Shown here piece by piece: positions 39,126-58,774 of a stretch of DNA of 64,000 bases. The stretch comes from Pedobacter sp. V48 (GTDB lineage: Bacteria; Bacteroidota; Bacteroidia; Sphingobacteriales; Sphingobacteriaceae). The position numbers and the translations under genes are program-made. The notes beneath the pieces were generated by a model. The model ran no database searches and had not been told where the DNA came from. It saw nothing but the letters and a program-made list of their open reading frames with translations. Location of the stretch: positions 105,682-169,681 of the forward strand of contig NZ_AWRU01000031.1 in assembly GCF_000523515.1 (NCBI RefSeq). The letters run 5' to 3'. Each line of letters opens with the position of its first letter. Positions within the stretch are counted from its first letter, which is position 1.

Positions 39126-41525
39126 ATGAATAATTTTAGACTAGTTAATTTACTTATAACGCTGTTATTCCTCTCAGTTAGCGCTATGGCCCAACAACCT
39201 GGCAGCATCACTGGAAAGATCACTACATCAGATGGACATAATGCTGCATTTGTATCAGTTAAGTTAATTGGGACACCATTTGGGGCAACTACAAATGAAA
39301 AGGGTGACTATGAAATCAACAAAGTGAATCCTGGAAAATATACAATAAGGGTTTCAGCAATTGGCTTAAGTCCTCAGGAAAAAACAGCAGAGGTTACAGA
39401 ATCTGCAAGTACTAAAGTTGATTTTGTGTTGAGAGAAAACCTTAGCACACTGGAAGAGGTAAACATATCAACAAATGCAAAAAGATACAAAGTAGATCAA
39501 CCCTCTTCCTCTTTAAGATTAAACCAACCCCTGTTAGAAATTCCACAAAACATTCAAATTGTAACCTCTTCTGCATTGGCCGATCAGCAAATAATCAGTA
39601 TGAGCGACGGGCTAATTCGTAATGTAAGCGGTGCTGTTAGACTTGAACATTGGGGAGACTTGTATACAAATATTACCATGCGTGGCTCACAAATACAGGC
39701 TTTACGCAATGGCTTCAACGTAGTGAGTTCTTATTGGGGACCCTTAACGGAAGACATGAGTTTTGTTGATCACATTGAATTTGTAAAAGGTCCCGCCGGC
39801 TTTATGGTTTCTAATGGAGATCCAAGTGGCCTTTACAATGTTGTAACTAAAAAACCTACAGGACAGGAAAAAGGTCAATTGTCTTTGACAACCGGCAGCT
39901 TTGGCTTATACCGTGCGGAAGTTGATCTTGACGGAAAACTAAATAAAAGTGGAAAGCTGCTTTACCGCCTGAATCTGGCTGGTCAGAATAAAAAATCGTT
40001 CAGAGATTATGAATCAAATAATCGCTACAGCATAGCTCCCGTTGTTTCTTACCAAATAGATGATAAAACGAAACTCACCGCCGAATATGCTCTTCAGCAT
40101 GCAGCAATGACAAACGTTGGTTCCTTTTACGTATTTGCCACTGATGGATACGCTAAACTTCCAAGGAATTTTACACAAGTAGCACCTGGATTACCCCTAA
40201 CAAAAATAAATGATCATAGTTTATTCTTAAATTTAACTCATGAGATCAACGATAATTGGAAAATAACAGCTGCTGCTTCATATTTTAACTATCAGCAAAA
40301 TGGGTCTTCAATGTGGCCGACAAAGGTTAACGATAATGGCACGCTGATTAGAAATGTTGGTATCTGGGATGCAAAAAGTGAAATGACAATGGCACAAGGC
40401 TTCATTAATGGTACTGTGGTAACCGGAGCAGTTAGACATCGCATACTTGCAGGTTTCGACTTAGGTAACAAAAATTATTTTGCAGACTGGGGTCAAAGCC
40501 ATGACCTGGACACAGAGGCTTCGCCTTTTGACAACAGCAATCCGAATTATGGCGTACCTTCAAATGGCTTTCCTCAATTTGACCGTTCACTCAATCTGGA
40601 AGCAAGGGCTACCATTGCTGGTGGTGTAATTTCACAAGAATACAGCAGTTTATATGCGCAGGATGAGTTGGGCTTCATAGACAACAAATTGAGATTGACA
40701 TTGGCAGGCCGCTATACCTATGTAAAACAATTTTATTTCGGTTCTACATCCGGCAAGAAATTCACCCCTCGGGCGGGATTGAGTTATACTATTGATAGTC
40801 AAACATCTGTATATGGACTATACGATCAGTCTTTTGTTCCGCAAACCGCAGGAAGATTATTAAATGGCGGAGCAGTAAAACCGATTACAGGTAACAACGT
40901 TGAATTTGGAATTAAAAAGGACTGGGGGAAGAATGGCTCATGGAATACTACACTTGCAGTATATAGGATACTTAAGAACAATGAAGCACAAGCAGAACCA
41001 AATCCTCAAAACATCAACAATCCAAAATATTTCTTATTGGGACAGAAAAGAGCCCAGGGTATTGAATTTGATATACGAGGTGAAATCATTTCCGGGTTAA
41101 CGTTAACAGCTAATTATGCGCTTACTGATTCCCGTGTAAACAAGGTAGGCAGTGATGTCCCTTCCGATCTAGCAATCGCCAAAGGTGATATTGTACCTGG
41201 TTACGCGAAACATACCACAAATGCCTGGTTAAGTTATAAATTACAAAATGGAGTACTAAAAGGGACAGGTATATCAGCAGGTTTCACTCACCTAGCCAAT
41301 CGCGAGACAGATTCATGGAGCGAATCTGATGTCCGTTTACCTAATTATTTTAAAGTTGATGGAGGTCTATTTTGGGAAAATAGTAAACTTAGACTAAATG
41401 CTAATGTATTTAATATATTTGATAAGTATCTGTATACAGGCTCCTATTACAGTTGGTTAAAATCATTCTATTGGCAGGCGGAAGCTCCTAGAAATTATAG
41501 ACTTAGTTTATCTTATAAATTTTAG
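39126..41525 (+). CDS. TonB-dependent siderophore receptor (FhuA/FoxA-like)
   Basis: Outer-membrane importer for ferric siderophores, energised by TonB. 799 aa. Signal peptide to about residue 22, then a carboxypeptidase-D-like regulatory domain (about 27-112), a TonB-box-like LEEVNIST, a plug (LLEIPQNIQIVTSSALADQQ, MRGSQ, VDHIEFVKGPAGFM) and a 22-strand barrel ending YRLSLSYKF. The siderophore-receptor subtype is indicated by the plug motifs and the PepSY protein next door. Operator-like repeats upstream suggest iron control. Confidence 0.93.
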   Translation: MNNFRLVNLLITLLFLSVSAMAQQPGSITGKITTSDGHNAAFVSVKLIGTPFGATTNEKGDYEINKVNPGKYTIRVSAIGLSPQEKTAEVTESASTKVDFVLRENLSTLEEVNISTNAKRYKVDQPSSSLRLNQPLLEIPQNIQIVTSSALADQQIISMSDGLIRNVSGAVRLEHWGDLYTNITMRGSQIQALRNGFNVVSSYWGPLTEDMSFVDHIEFVKGPAGFMVSNGDPSGLYNVVTKKPTGQEKGQLSLTTGSFGLYRAEVDLDGKLNKSGKLLYRLNLAGQNKKSFRDYESNNRYSIAPVVSYQIDDKTKLTAEYALQHAAMTNVGSFYVFATDGYAKLPRNFTQVAPGLPLTKINDHSLFLNLTHEINDNWKITAAASYFNYQQNGSSMWPTKVNDNGTLIRNVGIWDAKSEMTMAQGFINGTVVTGAVRHRILAGFDLGNKNYFADWGQSHDLDTEASPFDNSNPNYGVPSNGFPQFDRSLNLEARATIAGGVISQEYSSLYAQDELGFIDNKLRLTLAGRYTYVKQFYFGSTSGKKFTPRAGLSYTIDSQTSVYGLYDQSFVPQTAGRLLNGGAVKPITGNNVEFGIKKDWGKNGSWNTTLAVYRILKNNEAQAEPNPQNINNPKYFLLGQKRAQGIEFDIRGEIISGLTLTANYALTDSRVNKVGSDVPSDLAIAKGDIVPGYAKHTTNAWLSYKLQNGVLKGTGISAGFTHLANRETDSWSESDVRLPNYFKVDGGLFWENSKLRLNANVFNIFDKYLYTGSYYSWLKSFYWQAEAPRNYRLSLSYKF

Positions 41526-49336: not shown

Positions 49337-52300
49337 ATGCAAAAAAAATACTTTTTTATTCCGCTGTTACTAGCAGGCGGCTATACTGCAAGTTATGCCC
49401 AGTCGAGCCTACTAGTTAACCTCAATAAAAATTATCAAACAGGACTCGAACTGCTTGACAATGAAAAATACGTTGCTGCCGCCCAGCAATTTAAACTGGT
49501 TGAACAGCTTAGACAAAAACCAGGAACACAACAGGAAAGCAATTCAGAACTTTCTTTATTAAAAGAGAATGCTAAATTCTATGCTGCTGTTTGTGCATTA
49601 GAATTGGGTAATAATGATGCAGAGAGTTTATTTCAAAATTTCATAAAAGATTATCCGCTTAATCCCAATACAAAACTTGCCTATTTTCACGTAGGAAAAT
49701 CATACTTTGATCAGAAAAACTACAAAAAAGCATTAGAGTGGTTTGAAAAAACAGACCCTTCTACACTTTCTGCTAAGCAACGTTTAGAATATCAGTTTAA
49801 GCAAGGATATGCTTATTTTTTACAGAACGACATTGAAAAAGCCGAGCCTTTATTTGAAACTGTTAAAAAAGAAAAATCTCCTTTCCAGGAAAGTGCTACC
49901 TATTATTTTGCGTACATTAATTACCTGAACAAAGAATATAAAACTGCATTAAGCAACTTTGAAAAACTTAAAGGATCTCCAACATACGAGGCAAGTTATC
50001 CTTATTACATTACTTCAATGTATTATCTTGATGAAAGATATGATGATGTATTAGAATACGCCCTGCCTATCCTTAAATCTTCAAAACAACAATATGAGGC
50101 AGAGATGTTAAGTCTTATTGCTGCATCATACTTTGCAAAATCTGATTTTGTAAATGCGGAGAAGTATTTTAAAGAGTTCTACGCTAAAGATAAATCAAAT
50201 GTTAAAAATAACCTTTTCATTTATCAATACGGATACTCGTTATTTCAATTGAAAAGATATCCTGAATCAGTTTCAATTTTAGAAAAACTCGATACAGATG
50301 ATGTATACCTTCAAAGCGGGATGTACACTTTAGGTCGCTCTTTCATTATTCTTAAAAACAAAGAAAAAGCCAGAAGTGCTTTCTTCAGAGCATCAAGACT
50401 TGACTTTGATAAAGTTATACAAGAAGAATCATGGATCAACTATGCAAGGCTAAGTTATGAACTGGACTTTAATCAGCAAGCCCTTGAAGCAACTCAGAAC
50501 TTTTTAAAACAGTTTCCAACTTCCCGCAAAATTAACGAAGCAAAAACTTTACTTGGAGAAATTCTATTGACCAGTAAAAACTATCAGGCTGCTATAGATA
50601 TTCTTGAACCTATTCAAAGCAAATCGCCAGAGGCCAGAGAAGCTTATCAAAAAGTAACTTACTTTAGAGGACTAGAGTTTTATAACGAGCGGGCTTTTCC
50701 TAACGCTTTATCAATGTTCTTACGTTCTGAGAAGTTCCCGGAGGATAAAGAAATTCACGCATTAAGTACCTATTGGAAAGCTGAGGCTTCTTATGAATTA
50801 AGAAAATTTGGTGAAGCTGTTAAACATTTCGAGACATTCCTCGGAATGCCTGATGCTGATAAAACCGGGGTGTATAATTTTGCAAATTATGCCCTTGCTT
50901 ACGCTGCATTTGAAAACGAAAGCTACGGAAAAGCAGCTACATACTTTGAACGCTTCCTAGCGGGTAACGATAAGGATCAGAAAACAGTCAACGATGCCAT
51001 AATAAGGTTAGCTGACTCATATTTTGTAAATAAAAGCTATGGCAATGCGCTTGTAAATTATAACAAGATCATCAATGCCAGATCCACAGGAGAAGATTAT
51101 GCACTTTTTCAACGTGGCATGATCCAGGGATTGGAAAACCAAAATGAGGCCAAAATTGGAACCATGCAGGATCTTCTTAAACAGTTCCCTAATTCTAATT
51201 ACGCTGATGATGCTGGTTTCGAAACTGCTTATACCTATTTCAATATTGGAAATTTCGATAAATCCAGTACAGATCTTATTAGTTTAGTTAGTTTGTATCC
51301 TAATAGCAGTTATGTTCCAAGAGCTTTGGTTACCATTGGTCTTGTACAATATAATCAGGATAAAGACGATCAGGCATTAGAGTCGTTCAAAAAAGTAATC
51401 AGAGACTACGCCAGTAGTGAAGAAGCAAAACAGGCACTAGAATCTATCAAGAATATCTATGTTGACCGTGGTGATTCACAAGGTTTCATCACCTATGCTA
51501 ATTCAACTCCTCTAGGTAATTTCTCTGAAGCAGAACAAGATAATATAGTTTTTCAGGGAGCAAATAACCTTTATTTGAAAGGCGACTTCAAAGGTGCTTT
51601 CGAAGCTGTAAATGCTTATTTTGATAAGTATCCGAAAGCAATACATGACAAAGAAGCTAAGTTTGTTAGAGCTGAGTCATTGGTTAAACTTGGTCGACCT
51701 CTGGAAGCTGTTGCAGATTATGAGTACATTCTTAATGACTGGACAAGTGATTATACTGAGCGTTCACTGGTAAGTATTTCTCAATTGTTTTTAGATCAGA
51801 AGAAATATAACGAAGCAATTGTTTATCTAAAAAGATTAGAAACTACTGCCGATTACAAAGTTCACCATAGTTACGCTATAAATAATCTTCTGAAAGCTTA
51901 CGATGCATTAAAGATGCCCGATGATATGATCAAGTATGTTCAGTTGATTAAAGAGTCTGAAAAAGGCTCTGAGGAAGAAAAGAACAGTGCTGATCTATAT
52001 GCAGGTAAAGCTTATTTATTAAAGGGCGACACAACAAGTGCCGTAAAAGCTTTTAATAATGTAGTTAGTAAAACTAAAACCTTGGCAGCTGCCGAAGCTA
52101 AATACAATATCGCTGCGGTACAATATGCCAACGCTGATTATAAAACCTCAACTAAAACATGTTTTGATCTGATTAACAATATGGCCTCTTATGACTATTG
52201 GGTTGCCAAATCGTTCCTTTTATTAGCAGATAATTATGTAGCTCTAAAAGATAAGTTACAAGCTAAAAGTACACTCTTAAGTATCATCGACAATTATGAA

Positions 52301-52354
52301 GGCAAGGATGATATCGTCCCAACTGCTAAAGAGAAATTAGAAAAAATTAAATAA
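49337..52354 (+). CDS. Giant periplasmic tetratricopeptide-repeat protein
   Basis: 1005 aa with a Sec signal peptide (MQKKYFFIPLLLAGGYTASYAQ). The rest is an almost continuous array of TPR-like helix pairs, for example LAYFHVGKSYFDQKNYKKALEWFEKTDP, YGYSLFQLKRYPESVSILEKLD, AYTYFNIGNFDKSSTDLISLVSLYPNS and AIVYLKRLETTADYK. The spacing (tripartite YAD- and YfgC-type helices of 34-36 residues) suggests about 20 or more repeats forming a superhelical scaffold. First gene of a six-gene unit with a barrel protein and an ExbB-ExbD-TonB set. CpoB (YbgF), the TPR member of Tol-Pal, is a functional analogue to consider. Confidence 0.88.
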   Translation: MQKKYFFIPLLLAGGYTASYAQSSLLVNLNKNYQTGLELLDNEKYVAAAQQFKLVEQLRQKPGTQQESNSELSLLKENAKFYAAVCALELGNNDAESLFQNFIKDYPLNPNTKLAYFHVGKSYFDQKNYKKALEWFEKTDPSTLSAKQRLEYQFKQGYAYFLQNDIEKAEPLFETVKKEKSPFQESATYYFAYINYLNKEYKTALSNFEKLKGSPTYEASYPYYITSMYYLDERYDDVLEYALPILKSSKQQYEAEMLSLIAASYFAKSDFVNAEKYFKEFYAKDKSNVKNNLFIYQYGYSLFQLKRYPESVSILEKLDTDDVYLQSGMYTLGRSFIILKNKEKARSAFFRASRLDFDKVIQEESWINYARLSYELDFNQQALEATQNFLKQFPTSRKINEAKTLLGEILLTSKNYQAAIDILEPIQSKSPEAREAYQKVTYFRGLEFYNERAFPNALSMFLRSEKFPEDKEIHALSTYWKAEASYELRKFGEAVKHFETFLGMPDADKTGVYNFANYALAYAAFENESYGKAATYFERFLAGNDKDQKTVNDAIIRLADSYFVNKSYGNALVNYNKIINARSTGEDYALFQRGMIQGLENQNEAKIGTMQDLLKQFPNSNYADDAGFETAYTYFNIGNFDKSSTDLISLVSLYPNSSYVPRALVTIGLVQYNQDKDDQALESFKKVIRDYASSEEAKQALESIKNIYVDRGDSQGFITYANSTPLGNFSEAEQDNIVFQGANNLYLKGDFKGAFEAVNAYFDKYPKAIHDKEAKFVRAESLVKLGRPLEAVADYEYILNDWTSDYTERSLVSISQLFLDQKKYNEAIVYLKRLETTADYKVHHSYAINNLLKAYDALKMPDDMIKYVQLIKESEKGSEEEKNSADLYAGKAYLLKGDTTSAVKAFNNVVSKTKTLAAAEAKYNIAAVQYANADYKTSTKTCFDLINNMASYDYWVAKSFLLLADNYVALKDKLQAKSTLLSIIDNYEGKDDIVPTAKEKLEKIK

Positions 52355-52365
52355 GATTAAGCGAC

Positions 52366-54069
52366 ATGAGATTAACTAAATTAATATATAGTACCCTTTT
52401 CTTTATCACAGCTGCATCCCTAGGATTGAAGGCTCAGGATACAAAAACTACAGAAAAGAAGACGGATGATAAAGCTGTTACCGAAGAAATTGAAGTTGTA
52501 AGACCTTACAAACCTATTTTGGCAGAAGCGGTAAAACTGAGAAGAAGCCCTGATCTGAACGATATAAAAACATACAAGGCTAAATTTAACTATAGCCTTA
52601 CTGACAGAAAATTAGAGCTAAATTCTGACATCAATAAATTACAAGCTCAGGAAGTAGTTGCGGAGAAACAAGAAGAGCTAATAAACAACTATATTAAAGG
52701 TGGTTTTGGATCTGCGAAGACTATTTTTGGCGAAGCGTATATAAACCTAGGCCGCGACGAGGCTATGCAAGCTGGTGGGTATTTTCAACATTTTAGTCAG
52801 TCAGGCAAGCTAAATAAACAACAGTCCAGTCAGCAAAAACTTAGCGTTTTTGGCCGTAGCATTGGTGATGTTGTTACCTTAAGTGGTCGCGTTAATTTTC
52901 AAAGAAACGGATTATATTTCTATGGGATCGATAAGGCCAATCCAACATTAAATCCCGATCCTGAAAAACAAACACTTAATTTCTTTGAAGCAGAAGGAGA
53001 ACTTGTAAATAAATACACAGAAGACCCCGATGCCCTTAGTTATGCATTGAAACTTAACGGTTACATCTGGAGTGATAAATTTAATGCCAAAGAAAACTCA
53101 GTTGTTTTAAATGGATATGTAAATAAGAGAATCAGTAAGTTTAACTTAGGTCTTGCAGCATCTACAGAGTTCGGAAGCACTAAAGATGAGCTAGTAAGTG
53201 TTGGCAACAATCTTTTAAAGTTAAATCCTTATATCAGATTACAAGCGAGCGGTGTAAAAATAACTGCAGGAATTAATTTCGTACAGGAGTTTGGTGCATT
53301 CTCATCAAGTAGAATTTTCCCTGCTGTAACAGCAGATTTTACATTAATACCTGATTACCTGCAAATATTTGGAGAAGTAAAAGGAGATGTAAACCGTAAT
53401 TCTTTAAAACAGTTTAGTGATGAAAACCCATTCCTGAACAACAATATTACCATCAGAAATTCTATCGAAAAGCTAAGTGTCAGTGGTGGTATCAAAGGTA
53501 CAGGCGGCCCTGGGTTTGGATATAAAGCAAGAGTATACCACAAGAGCATTGAAGATATGCCATTGTTCGTAAACAACTTTTCAAGTTTTAATAAATTTGA
53601 TGTGATCTATGATTTCGGAACCATGAAGCTTATTGGAATCGAAGGAGAACTTTCTGTACAGGTAAGTGATGCTTTAAAATGGACCGGTAAATTAAATTTT
53701 GAAGATTATAAACCTGCTGCAGAAACACAAAGCTGGTTTAAACCTCAAATGCGTTTAAGTTCTGATCTATCTTATGTGATCAACAAAAAAGTAACCCTTA
53801 ATGCTTCGGTCGCACTTCAGGATGATAGCAAAGCAAAAATTTATACTGCAGCTCCTGCAAATCCTTATTATACACCTGATCCTGCCAATGAAACCGTAGT
53901 TACCGTTAAAGGATTTGTTGATTTAGGGGCCGGGGTATCATATAAAATAAATAATAAGTTTTCTGCCTTCGCAAGAGCTAACAATCTGTTAAACTCATCA
54001 TATAGCAGATACTTGCATTATGAGGTAATTGGGCTTAATGTTTTCGGAGGTATAAGCTACTCATTCTAA
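52366..54069 (+). CDS. Plug-less outer-membrane beta-barrel with TonB-box-like N-terminus
   Basis: 567 aa. Signal peptide to about residue 24 (ending LKAQD). A short Lys/Thr-rich stretch is followed by TEEIEVVRPYKP, similar in form to TonB boxes, and then, with no plug domain, a long run of amphipathic strands ending GGISYSF, the terminal-Phe signature of outer-membrane barrels. The late strand KFSAFARANNLLNSSYSRYL resembles barrels of TonB-dependent receptors. It lies 11 bases after the giant TPR gene and upstream of its own ExbB/ExbD/TonB genes. Function unknown; a force-receiving outer-membrane anchor is inferred. Confidence 0.82.
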   Translation: MRLTKLIYSTLFFITAASLGLKAQDTKTTEKKTDDKAVTEEIEVVRPYKPILAEAVKLRRSPDLNDIKTYKAKFNYSLTDRKLELNSDINKLQAQEVVAEKQEELINNYIKGGFGSAKTIFGEAYINLGRDEAMQAGGYFQHFSQSGKLNKQQSSQQKLSVFGRSIGDVVTLSGRVNFQRNGLYFYGIDKANPTLNPDPEKQTLNFFEAEGELVNKYTEDPDALSYALKLNGYIWSDKFNAKENSVVLNGYVNKRISKFNLGLAASTEFGSTKDELVSVGNNLLKLNPYIRLQASGVKITAGINFVQEFGAFSSSRIFPAVTADFTLIPDYLQIFGEVKGDVNRNSLKQFSDENPFLNNNITIRNSIEKLSVSGGIKGTGGPGFGYKARVYHKSIEDMPLFVNNFSSFNKFDVIYDFGTMKLIGIEGELSVQVSDALKWTGKLNFEDYKPAAETQSWFKPQMRLSSDLSYVINKKVTLNASVALQDDSKAKIYTAAPANPYYTPDPANETVVTVKGFVDLGAGVSYKINNKFSAFARANNLLNSSYSRYLHYEVIGLNVFGGISYSF

Positions 54070-54123
54070 TAGGTTTTTAATTAATAATTGGTTGATACGG
54101 AATTAAAATTTATTTTTACCAGA

Positions 54124-55515
54124 ATGGATATCTTATCATACCTTACTGAACTTATAAAAACTCGTAAAGAAGTTGGAATTTCTGGACTGGGTACTTTTTA
54201 TAAAAAGAAATCGCCAGGAAGGTACGATGTTGAAACACACTCTTTTCTGCCCCCAAGTTATACTTTGGCATTTGTAGAAGAGAATAGAGAATCTCAATCT
54301 CTTATCACCTACATATGTAAAAAAAGAAACATATCGACGGAAGCGGCTACTTATTATATGGACCAGTTTGCCGATGAGACTATAAAACAACTTTCCGAGA
54401 AGCAATACGCTGATTTTGGAGAAATAGGTATACTATCTGGCACACCTGGAAACTTAATTTTCAACCCCAAAGATCAACTAAAATTTGGCTTTGACTTTTA
54501 TGGTTTCCCTCCTTTAAAAGAAGAAGCAACTGCCATTATTAATGAAAACATTGCGGAAGCTGAAATAGTTGATGAAGCAGCTATTGAACAATCACTTTCT
54601 TTTGAACAAGAGCCTATAATTACAGAAGAGCAATTGAATCTTGAAGATAATAATGCCGATTTGAGTGACGGGTCAGATGAGATAGAAGTTATTGTTCATC
54701 ATCATGAAGAAAAACCTGCACGTGATGACCAACCTGTTTATGACGAAATATCAGAAGTTAAAATAGCCCAAAAACCTACCTCTTCAATTTCAATTGAAAC
54801 TCCGGAGGGACAAGACGATGATTCAAACGTTGTTGAAGAACCTATCGCTCCAAAAGTTGCCAATGCTCCATTCTTTAATACACCAAGTCCACTACAGCCG
54901 CAGATTGCTGAACCAATAGAGACCGAAGAAGAAAGCCAGGGGCTTCCGTTCTACCTAAAAATTATAATTGCCTTTGCAATAATAGTAGCGATAGGACTGG
55001 CAGCATATTTTATTAAGCCTGATCTTTTTAATGGTGCTCTAAATAAATCTGATAATAACCTTCATGACAATTCTGAACTGATTAAAAATAATGATAAAAT
55101 CAGAACTGATTCAATTGCCGAGGCAGATAGCATAAGAATAATCAATGAGAAAGCAATACAAACTGCAGATTCAATAAAAAAGGATAGTTTGGCTGTTAGT
55201 CCCGTTAAACCAGCGCCAACTTCCGCTGTTTCCGGAGCTATTGTTAGTGGCCCTGAAGGTCCAGTTACATGGGAGGTTATTGGTGCGTCAGTAATTAATC
55301 AAAAGGAAGCAGATAAATTTATCGCCCAAATGAAAGCAATAGGTATAACTGCAAAAGTTATCCCAACCCTTCCTGGTAAAAGGAGATTGAAAATTAGCAT
55401 TGCAACATTTAAAGATGAGGAAAGTGCAAGAGAAGGACGCAAACTACTAGTTACAAAATTAAAAGATCCAGGAATTTATATACATCAAAATAAACACACA
55501 CACAAACCACAATAA
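54124..55515 (+). CDS. HU-CCDC81 / transmembrane / SPOR-domain protein
   Basis: 463 aa from MDILSYLTELIKTRKEV. A TTG start at 54088 is possible, but its residues are not typical. The N-terminal Bacteroidetes HU-CCDC81 domain (about 1-140, GISGLGTFYKKKSPGRYDV) faces the cytoplasm. An acidic linker, one TM helix near 288-308 (FYLKIIIAFAIIVAIGLAAYF) and a periplasmic linker follow. A C-terminal SPOR domain (about 385-455, WEVIGASVINQKEADKFIAQMKAIG) would bind denuded peptidoglycan at division sites. The gene ends two bases before exbB. Confidence 0.87.
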   Translation: MDILSYLTELIKTRKEVGISGLGTFYKKKSPGRYDVETHSFLPPSYTLAFVEENRESQSLITYICKKRNISTEAATYYMDQFADETIKQLSEKQYADFGEIGILSGTPGNLIFNPKDQLKFGFDFYGFPPLKEEATAIINENIAEAEIVDEAAIEQSLSFEQEPIITEEQLNLEDNNADLSDGSDEIEVIVHHHEEKPARDDQPVYDEISEVKIAQKPTSSISIETPEGQDDDSNVVEEPIAPKVANAPFFNTPSPLQPQIAEPIETEEESQGLPFYLKIIIAFAIIVAIGLAAYFIKPDLFNGALNKSDNNLHDNSELIKNNDKIRTDSIAEADSIRIINEKAIQTADSIKKDSLAVSPVKPAPTSAVSGAIVSGPEGPVTWEVIGASVINQKEADKFIAQMKAIGITAKVIPTLPGKRRLKISIATFKDEESAREGRKLLVTKLKDPGIYIHQNKHTHKPQ

Positions 55516-55517
55516 AT

Positions 55518-56228
55518 ATGATCGTTTTATTACAAGGTGCAACTGATACCGCTAACAAGCTTATTGATACCGCTAATAACTTAAACCAAGCAATTACAAC
55601 TGCCCCACCAGAGCTTCATTTCATAGACCTTTTATTTAAAGGCGGATGGGTAATGCTTCCTTTAGCTTTTTTGGCATTTTTAGGATTAGTGATTTTTGTT
55701 GAAAGATACCTGACAATAAGAAAAGCTTCCAAAACTGAATCCAATTTAATGCTTCAGATCAAGCAATACATTCATGATGGAAGATTAGAAAATGCAATAA
55801 CTTTATGTCGCAATAATAACTCTCCATTGGCAAGAATGCTTGAGAAAGGATTGAAACGTATTGGTCGCCCAATTAAAGATATTGAAGCTGCAATTGAAAA
55901 CAATGGAAAGTTAGAAGTATCGAAATTAGAGAAAAACATAGGCATACTAGGAATTATAGCGGGTATTGCTCCTATGCTTGGTTTCGTAGGAACAATTATT
56001 GGGGTAATTACTATCTTCCATGATGTTTCCATTAAGGGTGCTATCGAAATTGGTACAATTTCTGGTGGTCTTTATACAAAAATGATTACCTCGGCAACAG
56101 GGCTGATTATAGGTATTATTGCTTATGTATTATATCATATTTTAAATATGATGGTTGAGCGCATAATTTTAAGAATGGAAACCGATGCTATCGAATTTAT
56201 TGATCTATTAGAGGAGCCAGGAAAATAA
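55518..56228 (+). CDS. exbB: MotA/TolQ/ExbB proton-channel protein
   Basis: 236 aa inner-membrane channel subunit. One TM helix near 42-64 (GGWVMLPLAFLAFLGLVIFVERYL), a cytoplasmic helical domain, then two TM helices (GIAPMLGFVGTIIGVITIF and ITSATGLIIGIIAYVLYHIL) carrying the conserved family prolines, glycines and threonines. The N-terminus has about 40 extra residues rich in Asn/Thr. Its stop overlaps the exbD ATG (TAATG). Whether it serves TonB- or Tol-type work cannot be told from this protein alone. Confidence 0.94.
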   Translation: MIVLLQGATDTANKLIDTANNLNQAITTAPPELHFIDLLFKGGWVMLPLAFLAFLGLVIFVERYLTIRKASKTESNLMLQIKQYIHDGRLENAITLCRNNNSPLARMLEKGLKRIGRPIKDIEAAIENNGKLEVSKLEKNIGILGIIAGIAPMLGFVGTIIGVITIFHDVSIKGAIEIGTISGGLYTKMITSATGLIIGIIAYVLYHILNMMVERIILRMETDAIEFIDLLEEPGK

Positions 56229-56629
56229 TGAATTTACGCAAAAGAAATAAAGGAACTGTAGAGGTACATACCTCTGCTTTGAACGACATCATGTTCTTCC
56301 TGCTTTTGTTTTTTCTATTGGCATCAGCTGTAGTTAATCCACAGGTAGTGAAGCTATTATTACCTCGTTCAGAAGCAGGACAACAATCAAATTCCCAAAA
56401 AACCGTTACTATATCTATAGATGATAATTTAAATTATTTTGTCGATAAGCAGCCTACCAAGCCTGAAAATATTCTGGCTGTAGTTGAAACCATGCAAAAG
56501 GCATCACCGGATTTAACTATAGTCGTTTACGCTGAAAGAAAGGTTTCTATTGAAAATGTGATGTCTATCTACGATGTAGGTAACAAATTGAAACTCAAAG
56601 TTGTACTCGCTGTAGAACCTAAGAAATAA
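56228..56629 (+). CDS. exbD: ExbD/TolR-family protein
   Basis: 133 aa. Single N-terminal TM helix with the essential aspartate Asp20 (SALNDIMFFLLLFFLLAS), then a periplasmic domain that binds peptidoglycan or TonB in homologues. Pairs with the preceding ExbB and shares a one-base TAATG overlap with both neighbours, the sign of stoichiometric coupled translation. Confidence 0.94.
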   Translation: MNLRKRNKGTVEVHTSALNDIMFFLLLFFLLASAVVNPQVVKLLLPRSEAGQQSNSQKTVTISIDDNLNYFVDKQPTKPENILAVVETMQKASPDLTIVVYAERKVSIENVMSIYDVGNKLKLKVVLAVEPKK

Positions 56630-57444
56630 TGACTTATCCTAAAGAAGAAAACAATTATCCCAAGGCACTGGCAATATCTACCGGTATCATGGCTGCATTG
56701 CTTGCTTTAAGCTTCTTTATTGTTATCGGAAGCTTTGAGCCTGAAGAAGCAGGTATGGGGGGTATGGTTGTTAACTATGGAACTTCTCCTACAGGTATGG
56801 GTTCAGATTACACCAGTATAGAAGAGCCATCTGCCGATCCGAATGCAAATAATCGTAAACCAGATAAAGTAACACCAGAAGAAGTAACTAAAGAAACTCC
56901 TACTCCGCAAACAAGCGAAAAAGAGATCGTTACCCAAAACTCTGAGGATGCTGTAGTTGTAAAGAGCAAAGCAACTAAAAAAGAGGCTACTCCCACTGCA
57001 ACTAATACAGAGACCAAGCCTTCAAAACCAGTTGTTAATCAAAATGCCCTATACAAAGGAAAATCTAGTAAAGGAACTGGTGCAGGTGATGGAACAGGTG
57101 ATACACCAGGAAATCAGGGAAGTAAAAATGGTGATCCGTTAGCCAATAATTATGGAGAAGGTGGATCCGGCTTTGGTGAAACTCCTATTGCATTAAGAAA
57201 GTTTACAAACCTGGTTACTCCACAGGATGATGGTCAGAAAACCGGTAAAATCGCTGTACGCATAAAAATAAACAAAGCCGGTCTTGTTATAGATGCTACC
57301 CCTGGAGTTAAAGGAACTACGCTAAATGATAGGGAGTTATGGCAAAAATGCAAGGAAGCATTAATGGGTGCTCGTTTAGCACCATCAGAAACGGCCCCGG
57401 ATATTCAAATTGGTGTAGTTGTTTTCAACTTTAAAGTTAAATAA
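56629..57444 (+). CDS. tonB: TonB-like energy transducer
   Basis: 271 aa. N-terminal TM helix (about 13-33), a long Pro/Thr/Lys/Glu-rich periplasmic stretch to about residue 150, a glycine-rich linker, then a C-terminal domain of about 70 residues (GKIAVRIKINKAGLVIDATPGVKGTTLNDRELWQKCKEAL) of TonB_C type. Last gene of the unit. The presumed partner is the barrel encoded upstream, which has a TonB-box-like segment. The general siderophore receptor at 39126 could use it too. Confidence 0.88.
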   Translation: MTYPKEENNYPKALAISTGIMAALLALSFFIVIGSFEPEEAGMGGMVVNYGTSPTGMGSDYTSIEEPSADPNANNRKPDKVTPEEVTKETPTPQTSEKEIVTQNSEDAVVVKSKATKKEATPTATNTETKPSKPVVNQNALYKGKSSKGTGAGDGTGDTPGNQGSKNGDPLANNYGEGGSGFGETPIALRKFTNLVTPQDDGQKTGKIAVRIKINKAGLVIDATPGVKGTTLNDRELWQKCKEALMGARLAPSETAPDIQIGVVVFNFKVK

Positions 57445-57487: not shown

Positions 57488-58774
57488 ATGAATTACGAAC
57501 AAACCATAGATTATTTATACCGCAAACTACCAATGTTTACCAGGGTTGGTGCTGTTGCCTTTAAAAAGGATTTGCACAATACCATCGCTATGTGCGAAAG
57601 GCTGGATAATCCACAAAATAATTTTAAGACGATACATATTGGCGGCACAAATGGGAAAGGTTCAACCTCCCACATGTTAGCCGCCATTTTTCAACAAGCA
57701 GGTTATAAAACCGGATTGTATACCTCCCCTCATTTAAAGGATTTTAGAGAACGTATCAGAATTAACGGCGAAATGGTTTCTAAAGATTTCGTAATAGATT
57801 TTGTTGATCAACAACAAGAAATCATTGAAGAACTTAGTCCTTCTTTTTTTGAGGTTACCGTAGCCATGGCATTTTCATATTTTTCTGAACAGAATGTTGA
57901 TATTGCTATAATTGAAGTAGGTTTGGGTGGCCGACTAGACTCAACAAACATTATAACTCCAGAATTGTCTGTTATCACCAATATTAGTCTTGATCACACC
58001 AACATCCTCGGTAATACATTAAAGGAAATTGCAGGAGAAAAAGCTGGAATTATAAAACCAGGTATTCCTGTCGTAATTGGGGAAAGCCATCCAGAAACCG
58101 ATCAGGTTTTTATCCAAAAAGCAAAGGACACACAAAGCCCGATTCTTTTTGCCGACCAGCAAATACAGATTAGCAAGTCAGTTAAAGAAGATGAGTATTT
58201 AAATGTTTCCATCTCACAGAATGGAAATATATTGATTGAAAATCTCCTGCTTGATCTTACTGGAAAGTATCAATTAAAGAATATTTTAACAGTTATTCAA
58301 GCAGTCGAGACTTTAAGAACATTAGATTTCAAGGTTGATAATGATGCGCTTTATGCTGCGTTAAAAGATGTAAAAGGTCTAACCGGTTTAATGGGGCGTT
58401 GGCAAATATTAAGTAAAAACCCTTTAATTGTTTGCGATACCGGACATAATATTGCAGGTATAACGGAAGTAATGCAAAATATTTATGATACACCGCATAA
58501 CAAACTTCATGTTGTAATTGGAATGGTGAAGGATAAAGACATAAGTGGTGTATTAAATCTTCTTCCTGCAAAAGCCACATATTATTTTTGCCAGCCCCAC
58601 CTTGAAAGGGCACTGCCTGTCCAAGAGCTTGCAAATGAAGCAAAAAAACATGGACTAAAAGGATTCGTATTCCCAACTGTTGAACTTGCTATAAATGCCG
58701 CTAAGAAAAATGCAAATGCTGATGACCTTATTTATATAGGTGGAAGTACTTTCGTAGTGGCCGAAATACCATAA
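57488..58774 (+). CDS. folC: Folylpolyglutamate synthase / dihydrofolate synthase
   Basis: Mur-ligase-family enzyme adding glutamate to dihydropteroate and folates. 428 aa. The P-loop is HIGGTNGKGSTSHMLAAIFQQAGYKTGLYTSPHL, followed by VGLGGRLDSTN, ISLDHTNILGNTLKEIAGEKAGIIKPG and the C-terminal CDTGHNIAG. It follows the tonB gene by 43 bases with its own weak promoter, so it may be partly co-transcribed with the envelope operon. Confidence 0.95.
   Translation: MNYEQTIDYLYRKLPMFTRVGAVAFKKDLHNTIAMCERLDNPQNNFKTIHIGGTNGKGSTSHMLAAIFQQAGYKTGLYTSPHLKDFRERIRINGEMVSKDFVIDFVDQQQEIIEELSPSFFEVTVAMAFSYFSEQNVDIAIIEVGLGGRLDSTNIITPELSVITNISLDHTNILGNTLKEIAGEKAGIIKPGIPVVIGESHPETDQVFIQKAKDTQSPILFADQQIQISKSVKEDEYLNVSISQNGNILIENLLLDLTGKYQLKNILTVIQAVETLRTLDFKVDNDALYAALKDVKGLTGLMGRWQILSKNPLIVCDTGHNIAGITEVMQNIYDTPHNKLHVVIGMVKDKDISGVLNLLPAKATYYFCQPHLERALPVQELANEAKKHGLKGFVFPTVELAINAAKKNANADDLIYIGGSTFVVAEIP

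Follow-up and report, generated by a model that had tools for sequence, protein, structure and literature searches.

A plugless transporter-type barrel in a six-gene TonB/Tol-like run of Pedobacter suggests a candidate envelope machine of Bacteroidota

The described systems closest to the gene run considered here include Tol-Pal (TolQ-TolR-TolA-TolB-Pal-CpoB), in which CpoB scaffolds wall enzymes, and TonB-ExbB-ExbD with its TonB-dependent transporters. The TonB and TolA transducers of these systems carry a histidine in their transmembrane (TM) helix, within an SxxxH motif. For outer-membrane attachment and constriction in Bacteroidota, PorE has been proposed as a tether between outer membrane and peptidoglycan that stands in for missing Tol-Pal functions, with other such systems still to be revealed (PMC12204202, 2025). 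PorE is presented there as one lipoprotein that combines folds resembling those of CpoB, TolB and Pal, and a motor is not described; its gene differs from the six analyzed below, and joint action is possible.

In a 64,000-nucleotide stretch of the Pedobacter sp. V48 genome (the window), the open reading frame list and translations place six genes, all on the + strand and at the expected place, in the order TPR protein, barrel, HU-CCDC81/TM/SPOR protein, ExbB, ExbD and TonB-like protein. Eleven bases separate the TPR and barrel genes and two separate the SPOR and ExbB genes, while the ExbB/ExbD and ExbD/TonB-like junctions are one-base overlaps. A preliminary description had proposed this gene set and order, with short gaps or one-base overlaps, and the coordinates and Pfam domains bear it out on both counts; its six-gene operon stands as one run at this locus, but the run is unbroken in some lineages only. 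A folC-like Mur-ligase gene (57488..58774, +; Pfam Mur_ligase_C and _M) lies downstream and is likewise found after the TonB-like gene in several families; we regard it as a conserved neighbour and do not think it part of the machine itself.

The gene order is kept across families inside and outside the class, and the whole run with folC is present at 56 of 80 Pedobacter-group loci, a recurrence that exceeds what chance would give. The preliminary description had made its TonB/Tol-type system depend on synteny outside close relatives, and the order indeed extends far beyond them. Every genome sampled from the order (61 of 61) has the barrel, as do 72 of the 73 sampled from the class when two profiles are combined; the raw count of 149 among 296 genomes is not a prevalence, because it counts receptor paralogues and misses families such as f13. 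Barrel, SPOR, ExbB and ExbD genes are also clustered in many other families, often together with TPR or TonB-like genes. Elsewhere the genes are scattered (family f4 and others) or the TPR-barrel pair lies apart from the motor genes (f2-f7, f10 and f11), with the pair mostly intact in split operons and an ExbB orthologue in all 28 of the split-operon genomes tested. A divergent FtsE-like gene sits near the TPR-barrel pair at 20 of 23 f4 loci and at the single f6 locus (1/1). A literature search that left aside preprints and most subscription papers recognised no publication on this six-gene set, which is not a claim of its absence from print.

The second gene (52366..54069, +) encodes a 567-residue outer-membrane barrel that scores 21.4 bits against PF00593, below the Pfam cut-off of 27. 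Its AlphaFold2 model (pLDDT 67.5) best matches BtuB in the PDB (TM 0.61), with FpvA and others also matching, and by this model the barrel has the fold of a TonB-dependent transporter. The barrel of BtuB has 22 strands. None of the 147 plug matches found by profile search in this genome falls on the barrel, and no plug domain was found in the seven relatives scanned, so that to the earlier account we add that the barrel is of transporter type and shows no detectable plug. It is this absence that led us to reject an ordinary siderophore-type receptor operon: a transporter-like barrel does adjoin exbB-exbD-tonB, but it has no plug match, the run holds no iron genes by Pfam or in the neighbourhoods inspected, and the barrel is near universal in the class, leaving this explanation scarcely credible.

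Residues 40-64 of the barrel protein (52483..52557, +) form an N-terminal arm that is the most conserved 25-column window of the protein in families f1, f4 and f23. The arm is disordered and of low confidence in the AlphaFold2 model, occupies the place of the TonB box in TonB-dependent transporters, and resembles such a box by eye in several lineages. We evaluated this resemblance in a blind test with 26 boxes from this genome as reference, counting 95 loci after exclusion of the low-scoring L134, L135, L137, L139 and L142, which by eye are other receptors. The result was not significant (17 of 95 barrels against 12.9 expected, with shuffles giving 7-19); 40 of 95 barrels reached rank 3 or better, a figure that carries no shuffle comparison, and the TPR control gave 0 of 80.

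The first gene (49337..52354, +) encodes a giant periplasmic TPR protein of 1005 residues with Pfam TPR families and, by eye, a signal peptide. It passes the NCBIfam YbgF/CpoB cut-off (178.9 against 90.1 bits) with a score summed over its repeats, but it is 1005 residues long and reaches 40.5 against a cut-off of 383 for CpoB's own model, NF008068. In two other families each of the genomes searched (14 of 14) has an orthologue, at 720-811 bits, and a TPR gene lies at most two genes upstream of the barrel at 80 of 95 loci. Apart from receptors and generic TPR proteins, searches against solved structures matched nothing, and the SPOR protein drew no match at all. The close pairing of TPR protein and barrel, a fusion seen in three genomes between the arm and a TPR paralogue, and a transporter-type barrel with its own motor would all fit dedicated energised transport or export. 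In this reading the plugless barrel would be a channel that opens when its arm is pulled, the TPR protein would serve in the periplasm as a removable cap or as a carrier of substrate, and the SPOR protein would direct the apparatus to growing or dividing sites. However, comparison of neighbourhoods by eye across families shows no recurrent gene for substrate binding, lipids or secretion in the run, and near universality in the class favours a housekeeping job, although essential export would fit that too. On balance we consider transport or export of this kind rather unlikely.

The fourth and fifth genes encode an ExbB/TolQ-type proton channel (55518..56228, +; PF01618, 81.9 bits), whose best NCBIfam model is tolQ at 68.6 bits, below the tolQ cut-off, and an ExbD/TolR-type motor protein (56228..56629, +; PF02472, 76.7 bits). 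The last protein (56629..57444, +) has no TonB match in Pfam or NCBIfam; its model comprises a TM helix, a disordered spacer and a beta-beta-alpha-beta domain, and the top 12 PDB matches of this C-terminal domain are all of TonB/TolA type (best E 0.02, probability 0.99). TIGR01352 scored 42.9, 27.3 and 16.7 bits in the three orthologues scanned, against a cut-off of 27.1. On the strength of the predicted fold and the two orthologues above that cut-off, we place the protein with TonB and TolA as a putative force transducer. Among the 12 sequences compared, the TM-helix histidine (SxxxH) is absent from all seven TonB-like proteins of family f1, that of the window included, and is present in those of some other families.

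The motor genes also bear on whether ordinary receptors draw their energy from ExbB, ExbD and the TonB-like protein, with the TPR-barrel pair and SPOR protein as unrelated housekeeping neighbours. The parting of TPR-barrel and motor genes in f2-f7, f10 and f11 is consistent with such a general role, as is the tonB1 system of Riemerella, whose operon may be orthologous to that of Pedobacter: tonB1 is reported to be dispensable and to support haemin uptake once tonB2 is lost, and its system restored an E. coli strain (PMC4446302). Given this dispensability and haemin backup, we make no claim of a purely divisional role. Against a general Ton motor, chance neighbours would not persist as clusters of barrel, SPOR, ExbB and ExbD genes in families of several distant groups, and elsewhere the genome holds a second ExbB, some 2 kb from a TonB_C match, which suggests that ordinary Ton work is served by a motor of its own. 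We judge this explanation improbable.

The third gene is listed from a TTG at 54088; this start is probably too early, and by arithmetic on the translation an in-frame ATG at 54124 would be the better fit (54124..55515, +). Its product matches HU-CCDC81_bac_1 and _2 (PF18174 and PF18175) and, as the preliminary description had anticipated, a SPOR domain, at 22.4 bits against a Pfam cut-off of 21. SPOR exceeded the cut-off in seven of nine relatives scanned; the SPOR proteins scanned from family f8 had no HU match, and one fell below the SPOR cut-off. SPOR domains bind denuded septal peptidoglycan. With a single N-in TM helix (by eye) and a C-terminal SPOR domain the protein resembles FtsN, but it carries HU-CCDC81 domains in place of the cytoplasmic tail of FtsN and is linked to a proton motor.

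Set beside Tol-Pal, the Pedobacter run shares a proton channel, a TolR/ExbD-type protein, a TonB/TolA-type transducer, a TPR protein and a peptidoglycan-binding module; it differs in having neither TolB nor Pal, in using an integral barrel as its outer-membrane handle, in binding peptidoglycan through SPOR, and in its extra cytoplasmic HU domains. With the TonB-ExbB-ExbD system and its transporters it shares motor, transducer fold and transporter-type barrel, whereas its barrel is plugless, its TPR and SPOR partners are fixed, and the run holds no substrate genes. The absence of TolB extends to the whole Pedobacter genome, which has no PF04052 (TolB_N) match, and TolB_N was found in 1 of 73 class genomes sampled. 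The absence of Pal given in the preliminary description holds for the run by Pfam but is right only in part, as 12 Pal_lipo/OmpA-domain matches occur in the genome; none reaches the Pal cut-off (best 82.5 against 125.35), and three of them lie in frames of 183-198 residues. The host group seems to lack a standard Tol-Pal machine. We dropped the idea that TolB mirrors the distribution of the system: 10 of 19 TolB_N genomes belong to f17, where no run was seen, but one family is too few and genome G296 has both the run and TolB_N. Together with the TolB_N match in the control Bacteroides ihuae, G296 argues against a clean swap for TolB.

We favour, at roughly even chances, a septal, proton-driven, Tol-like trans-envelope machine with the plugless barrel as outer-membrane handle; its septal location, docking and pulling are what we infer. 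By family-level knowledge ExbB and ExbD would form the inner-membrane motor, and the TonB-like protein, by its predicted fold, the force transducer, which may span the periplasm and engage the barrel at its N-terminal arm. Because no plug was found on the barrel, pulling would open no gate and would instead move or tether an integral outer-membrane anchor. The giant TPR protein, the usual gene partner of the barrel, would probably serve as pore cap and CpoB-like scaffold for wall enzymes. The HU/TM/SPOR protein may form a link between the cytoplasm and denuded peptidoglycan at the septum and, by analogy with SPOR domains elsewhere, site the machine at the constriction, so that the outer membrane would keep invaginating along with the dividing wall. 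Speaking for this reading are the shared gene order, the near-universal barrel, the ExbB orthologues of split genomes, the predicted folds of barrel and transducer, the conserved arm and its fusion to TPR, the scarcity of TolB_N, the separate ExbB locus and, as hints of septal action, the SPOR domain and the FtsE-like neighbour. Speaking against it are the TonB-box result, the scattered genes of f4 and others, the f8 SPOR proteins, the TolB_N matches of G296 and Bacteroides ihuae, and the tonB1 system of Riemerella.

More tentatively, and with somewhat less than even confidence, we propose that Bacteroidota replaced Tol-Pal with a proton-driven outer-membrane machine of a third kind. Its parts would be a TonB-dependent transporter turned plugless mechanical anchor, a cap formed by the giant TPR protein, and an HU/SPOR link from cytoplasm to septum, and this one device would couple the state of the cytosol to the septal wall and the outer membrane. 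For Flavobacterium johnsoniae a depletion system has been described (PMC12611786). With its defined genes, this near-universal candidate makes it testable how Bacteroidota hold and constrict their outer membrane without a recognisable Tol-Pal locus and, if true, a transporter barrel turned anchor would be a new use of Ton machinery.

The six open reading frames proposed at window positions 49337-57444 on the forward strand, their order and their close spacing were all borne out in the sequence. Pfam matched TPR repeats, two HU-CCDC81 domains, SPOR, MotA_ExbB and ExbD, confirming these parts, but the barrel drew only a weak PF00593 match and the TonB-like protein at the end no TonB match, so that both called for further evidence. 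An AlphaFold2 model of the barrel (63 sequences; mean pLDDT 67.5) showed 25 strand elements from residue 109 on and next to nothing confident ahead of residue 105. BtuB was its top PDB match (E 2e-17, TM 0.61), and further TonB-dependent transporters came next. None of the genome's 147 Plug matches fell on the barrel (150 of 160 first-look candidates scored), nor did any of seven barrel relatives scanned carry one; with no plug found, the barrel fails membership among TonB-dependent transporters. The leading alternative reading of the run, gated transport or export, we consider rather unlikely. A separate receptor, with a Plug match at window 39531-39830 (+) inside a 799-aa open frame, was also observed.

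In the TonB-like protein a TM helix is followed by a long disordered spacer and then by a beta-beta-alpha-beta domain. Its 12 top PDB matches are all to domains of the TonB, TolA or FusB type; the best has E 0.02 and probability 0.99, and E 0.001 is reached by none. Two of three orthologues scanned passed the NCBI TonB_Cterm cut-off. The ExbB channel position (glutamate E176 in E. coli) is E in 8/8 f23 loci (f numbers denote families, f1 being the window's), 17 loci of unlabelled family and 4/7 f8 loci, and T or V in 7/7 f1 loci, 2/2 f9 loci and the six f2 proteins that were parsed, three proteins in f2 being misread or unread. The genome also encodes a second ExbB, and a TonB_C match lies some 2 kb from it.

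We compared gene order across the window and 119 fetched regions, 95 of which carry the barrel at >200 bits; as regions were picked for a barrel or HU match, fractions describe architecture rather than prevalence. A TPR gene lies within two genes upstream of the barrel at 80 of the 95 loci, and within five genes downstream there is an HU/SPOR profile match at 55, ExbB at 44 and a TonB-like gene at 36. All four parts occur together at 18/95 loci (seven f1, seven f8, two f9, two f20), with ExbD labelled in 17 of these, and ten other loci from families beyond the class combine TPR, SPOR and ExbB without a TonB-like match, upholding the gene-order conservation that the preliminary description had put up for checking. 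At 14 further loci (f21, f23) HU/SPOR, ExbB and TonB-like genes lie within these distances of the barrel and TPR does not; its orthologue lies elsewhere in 14/14 genomes of these two families (720-811 bits; runner-up matches <=57 bits). FtsK-like and LolA-like genes were seen by eye upstream of the barrel at loci L126 and L141 (f23 and f21), the LolA models matching under cut-off at L126.

In f2 to f7, f10 and f11 (f4 and f3 being, at a guess, Flavobacteriaceae and Weeksellaceae), the parts are spread over two or three loci. ExbB searches of 28 such split class genomes gave one match in each (199-286 bits; next <=180 bits), around which ExbD was labelled in 27, TonB-like in 16 and the folC start in three, within regions that reach about 1.5 kb out and often cut off later genes. 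Separating in this way, the parts form two stable modules, TPR-barrel and the motor. A reading in which the motor serves Ton functions in general and its neighbours are unrelated is less probable still than transport or export. No HU/SPOR gene was found inside the 8 kb flank at 20/80 Pedobacter-group loci; contig ends cut at least two of these, L226 and L238. Motor genes were likewise not found within 8 kb past the barrel at L211 and 19 other Pedobacter-group loci; at L211, the one locus read out, a SusC/SusD/FecR-like operon follows by eye. Elsewhere, loci of f4 and f3 have a YciA-like thioesterase beside the HU/SPOR gene (L144, L151; L144 scan under cut-off), and two tandem ExbD genes follow ExbB in f5 (L268, L272, L281).

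The barrel is present in 61/61 genomes of the order sample (one family, eight genera). Our first profile, A1, found it in 70/73 class genomes (own, genus, family and class rows; phylum sample n=296), and a second recovered two of the three misses, giving 72/73; the gene-order comparison leaves aside the barrel region of seven class genomes with a match (G005, G080, G084, G229, G261, G276, G299). For genomes beyond the class we used gene neighbourhoods, A1 being too loose there, since it catches other receptors, and at the same time too narrow. The nearest named loci (barrel identity 96-99%) belong to P. panaciterrae (two strains), P. foliorum and Pedobacter sp. B4-66.

An arm (residues 40-64, window 52483-52557) separates the signal peptide from the barrel and contains the protein's most conserved 25-column window in f1, f4 and f23, although for f4 this is the arm's second half rather than the box-like part; it ranks 8th in f8, 12th in f3 and 16th in f2. 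In several lineages the arm looks by eye like a TonB box. In a blind test built on 26 boxes from the window's genome, the top window fell among the first 75 residues in 17/95 barrels versus 12.9 expected (20 shuffles, 7-19), so it is only from the arm's place and conservation that we infer docking of the TonB-like protein. Three members of the window's family (G001, G016, G039) encode a second TPR protein of 848-872 aa, a paralogue in which the barrel's signal peptide and arm are fused in front of the TPR part (L262:5326-7932, minus; L263:4211-6829, minus; L264:7072-9618, plus). Its TPR part starts at TPR residues 236-244 with 55-58% identity, and in the arm identity is 66.7% across 45 residues, 32% across 124 and 42% across 83. 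The arm is a portable element linked with the TPR protein.

SPOR scores above cut-off in the window's HU/TM/SPOR protein and in seven of nine relatives scanned; of the other two, one falls short of it at 18.3 bits and the second, from f2, has no SPOR match. Separately, an f34 locus (L138:10382-13402, plus) encodes a 1006-aa SPOR protein that has long acidic repeats and lacks an HU match. A divergent FtsE-like ABC ATPase gene (as at L079:15674-16357) flanks TPR-barrel at 20/23 f4 loci and at the single f6 locus, the distance being 60-344 bases save for one case of 1749; no other locus has it at >50% identity. Its top NCBIfam model is FtsE (242 bits, under the 264.85 cut-off). TolB_N occurs in 19/296 genomes (ten f17, four f29, two f16, one each f28, f30 and f11, the last the sole class case) and in the control genome of Bacteroides ihuae; G296 (f29) holds both TolB_N matches and the run. 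The described absence of TolB extends to the whole of the window's genome, where no TolB_N match was found; that of Pal holds only in part, since Pal-like OmpA-domain proteins do exist there, all scoring under the Pal cut-off. Lacking TolB, the run fails membership of Tol-Pal, and the missing TolB and plug together lower the family claim while leaving that of the same force principle intact. The run is a variant within the TonB/Tol kind, and a septal Tol-like machine anchored by a plugless barrel is its most likely reading, at an even balance of confidence.

The R. anatipestifer exbB-exbD-tonB1 operon matches the ExbB-ExbD-TonB-like trio in sizes and order, the two features compared. In that species, tonB1 deletion alone left haemin uptake unaffected, but uptake was abolished once tonB1 and tonB2 were both lost; a heading in the paper states that the TonB1 system restored E. 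coli growth (PMC4446302). If this operon is the orthologue, the trio would be neither essential there nor closed off from nutrient uptake.
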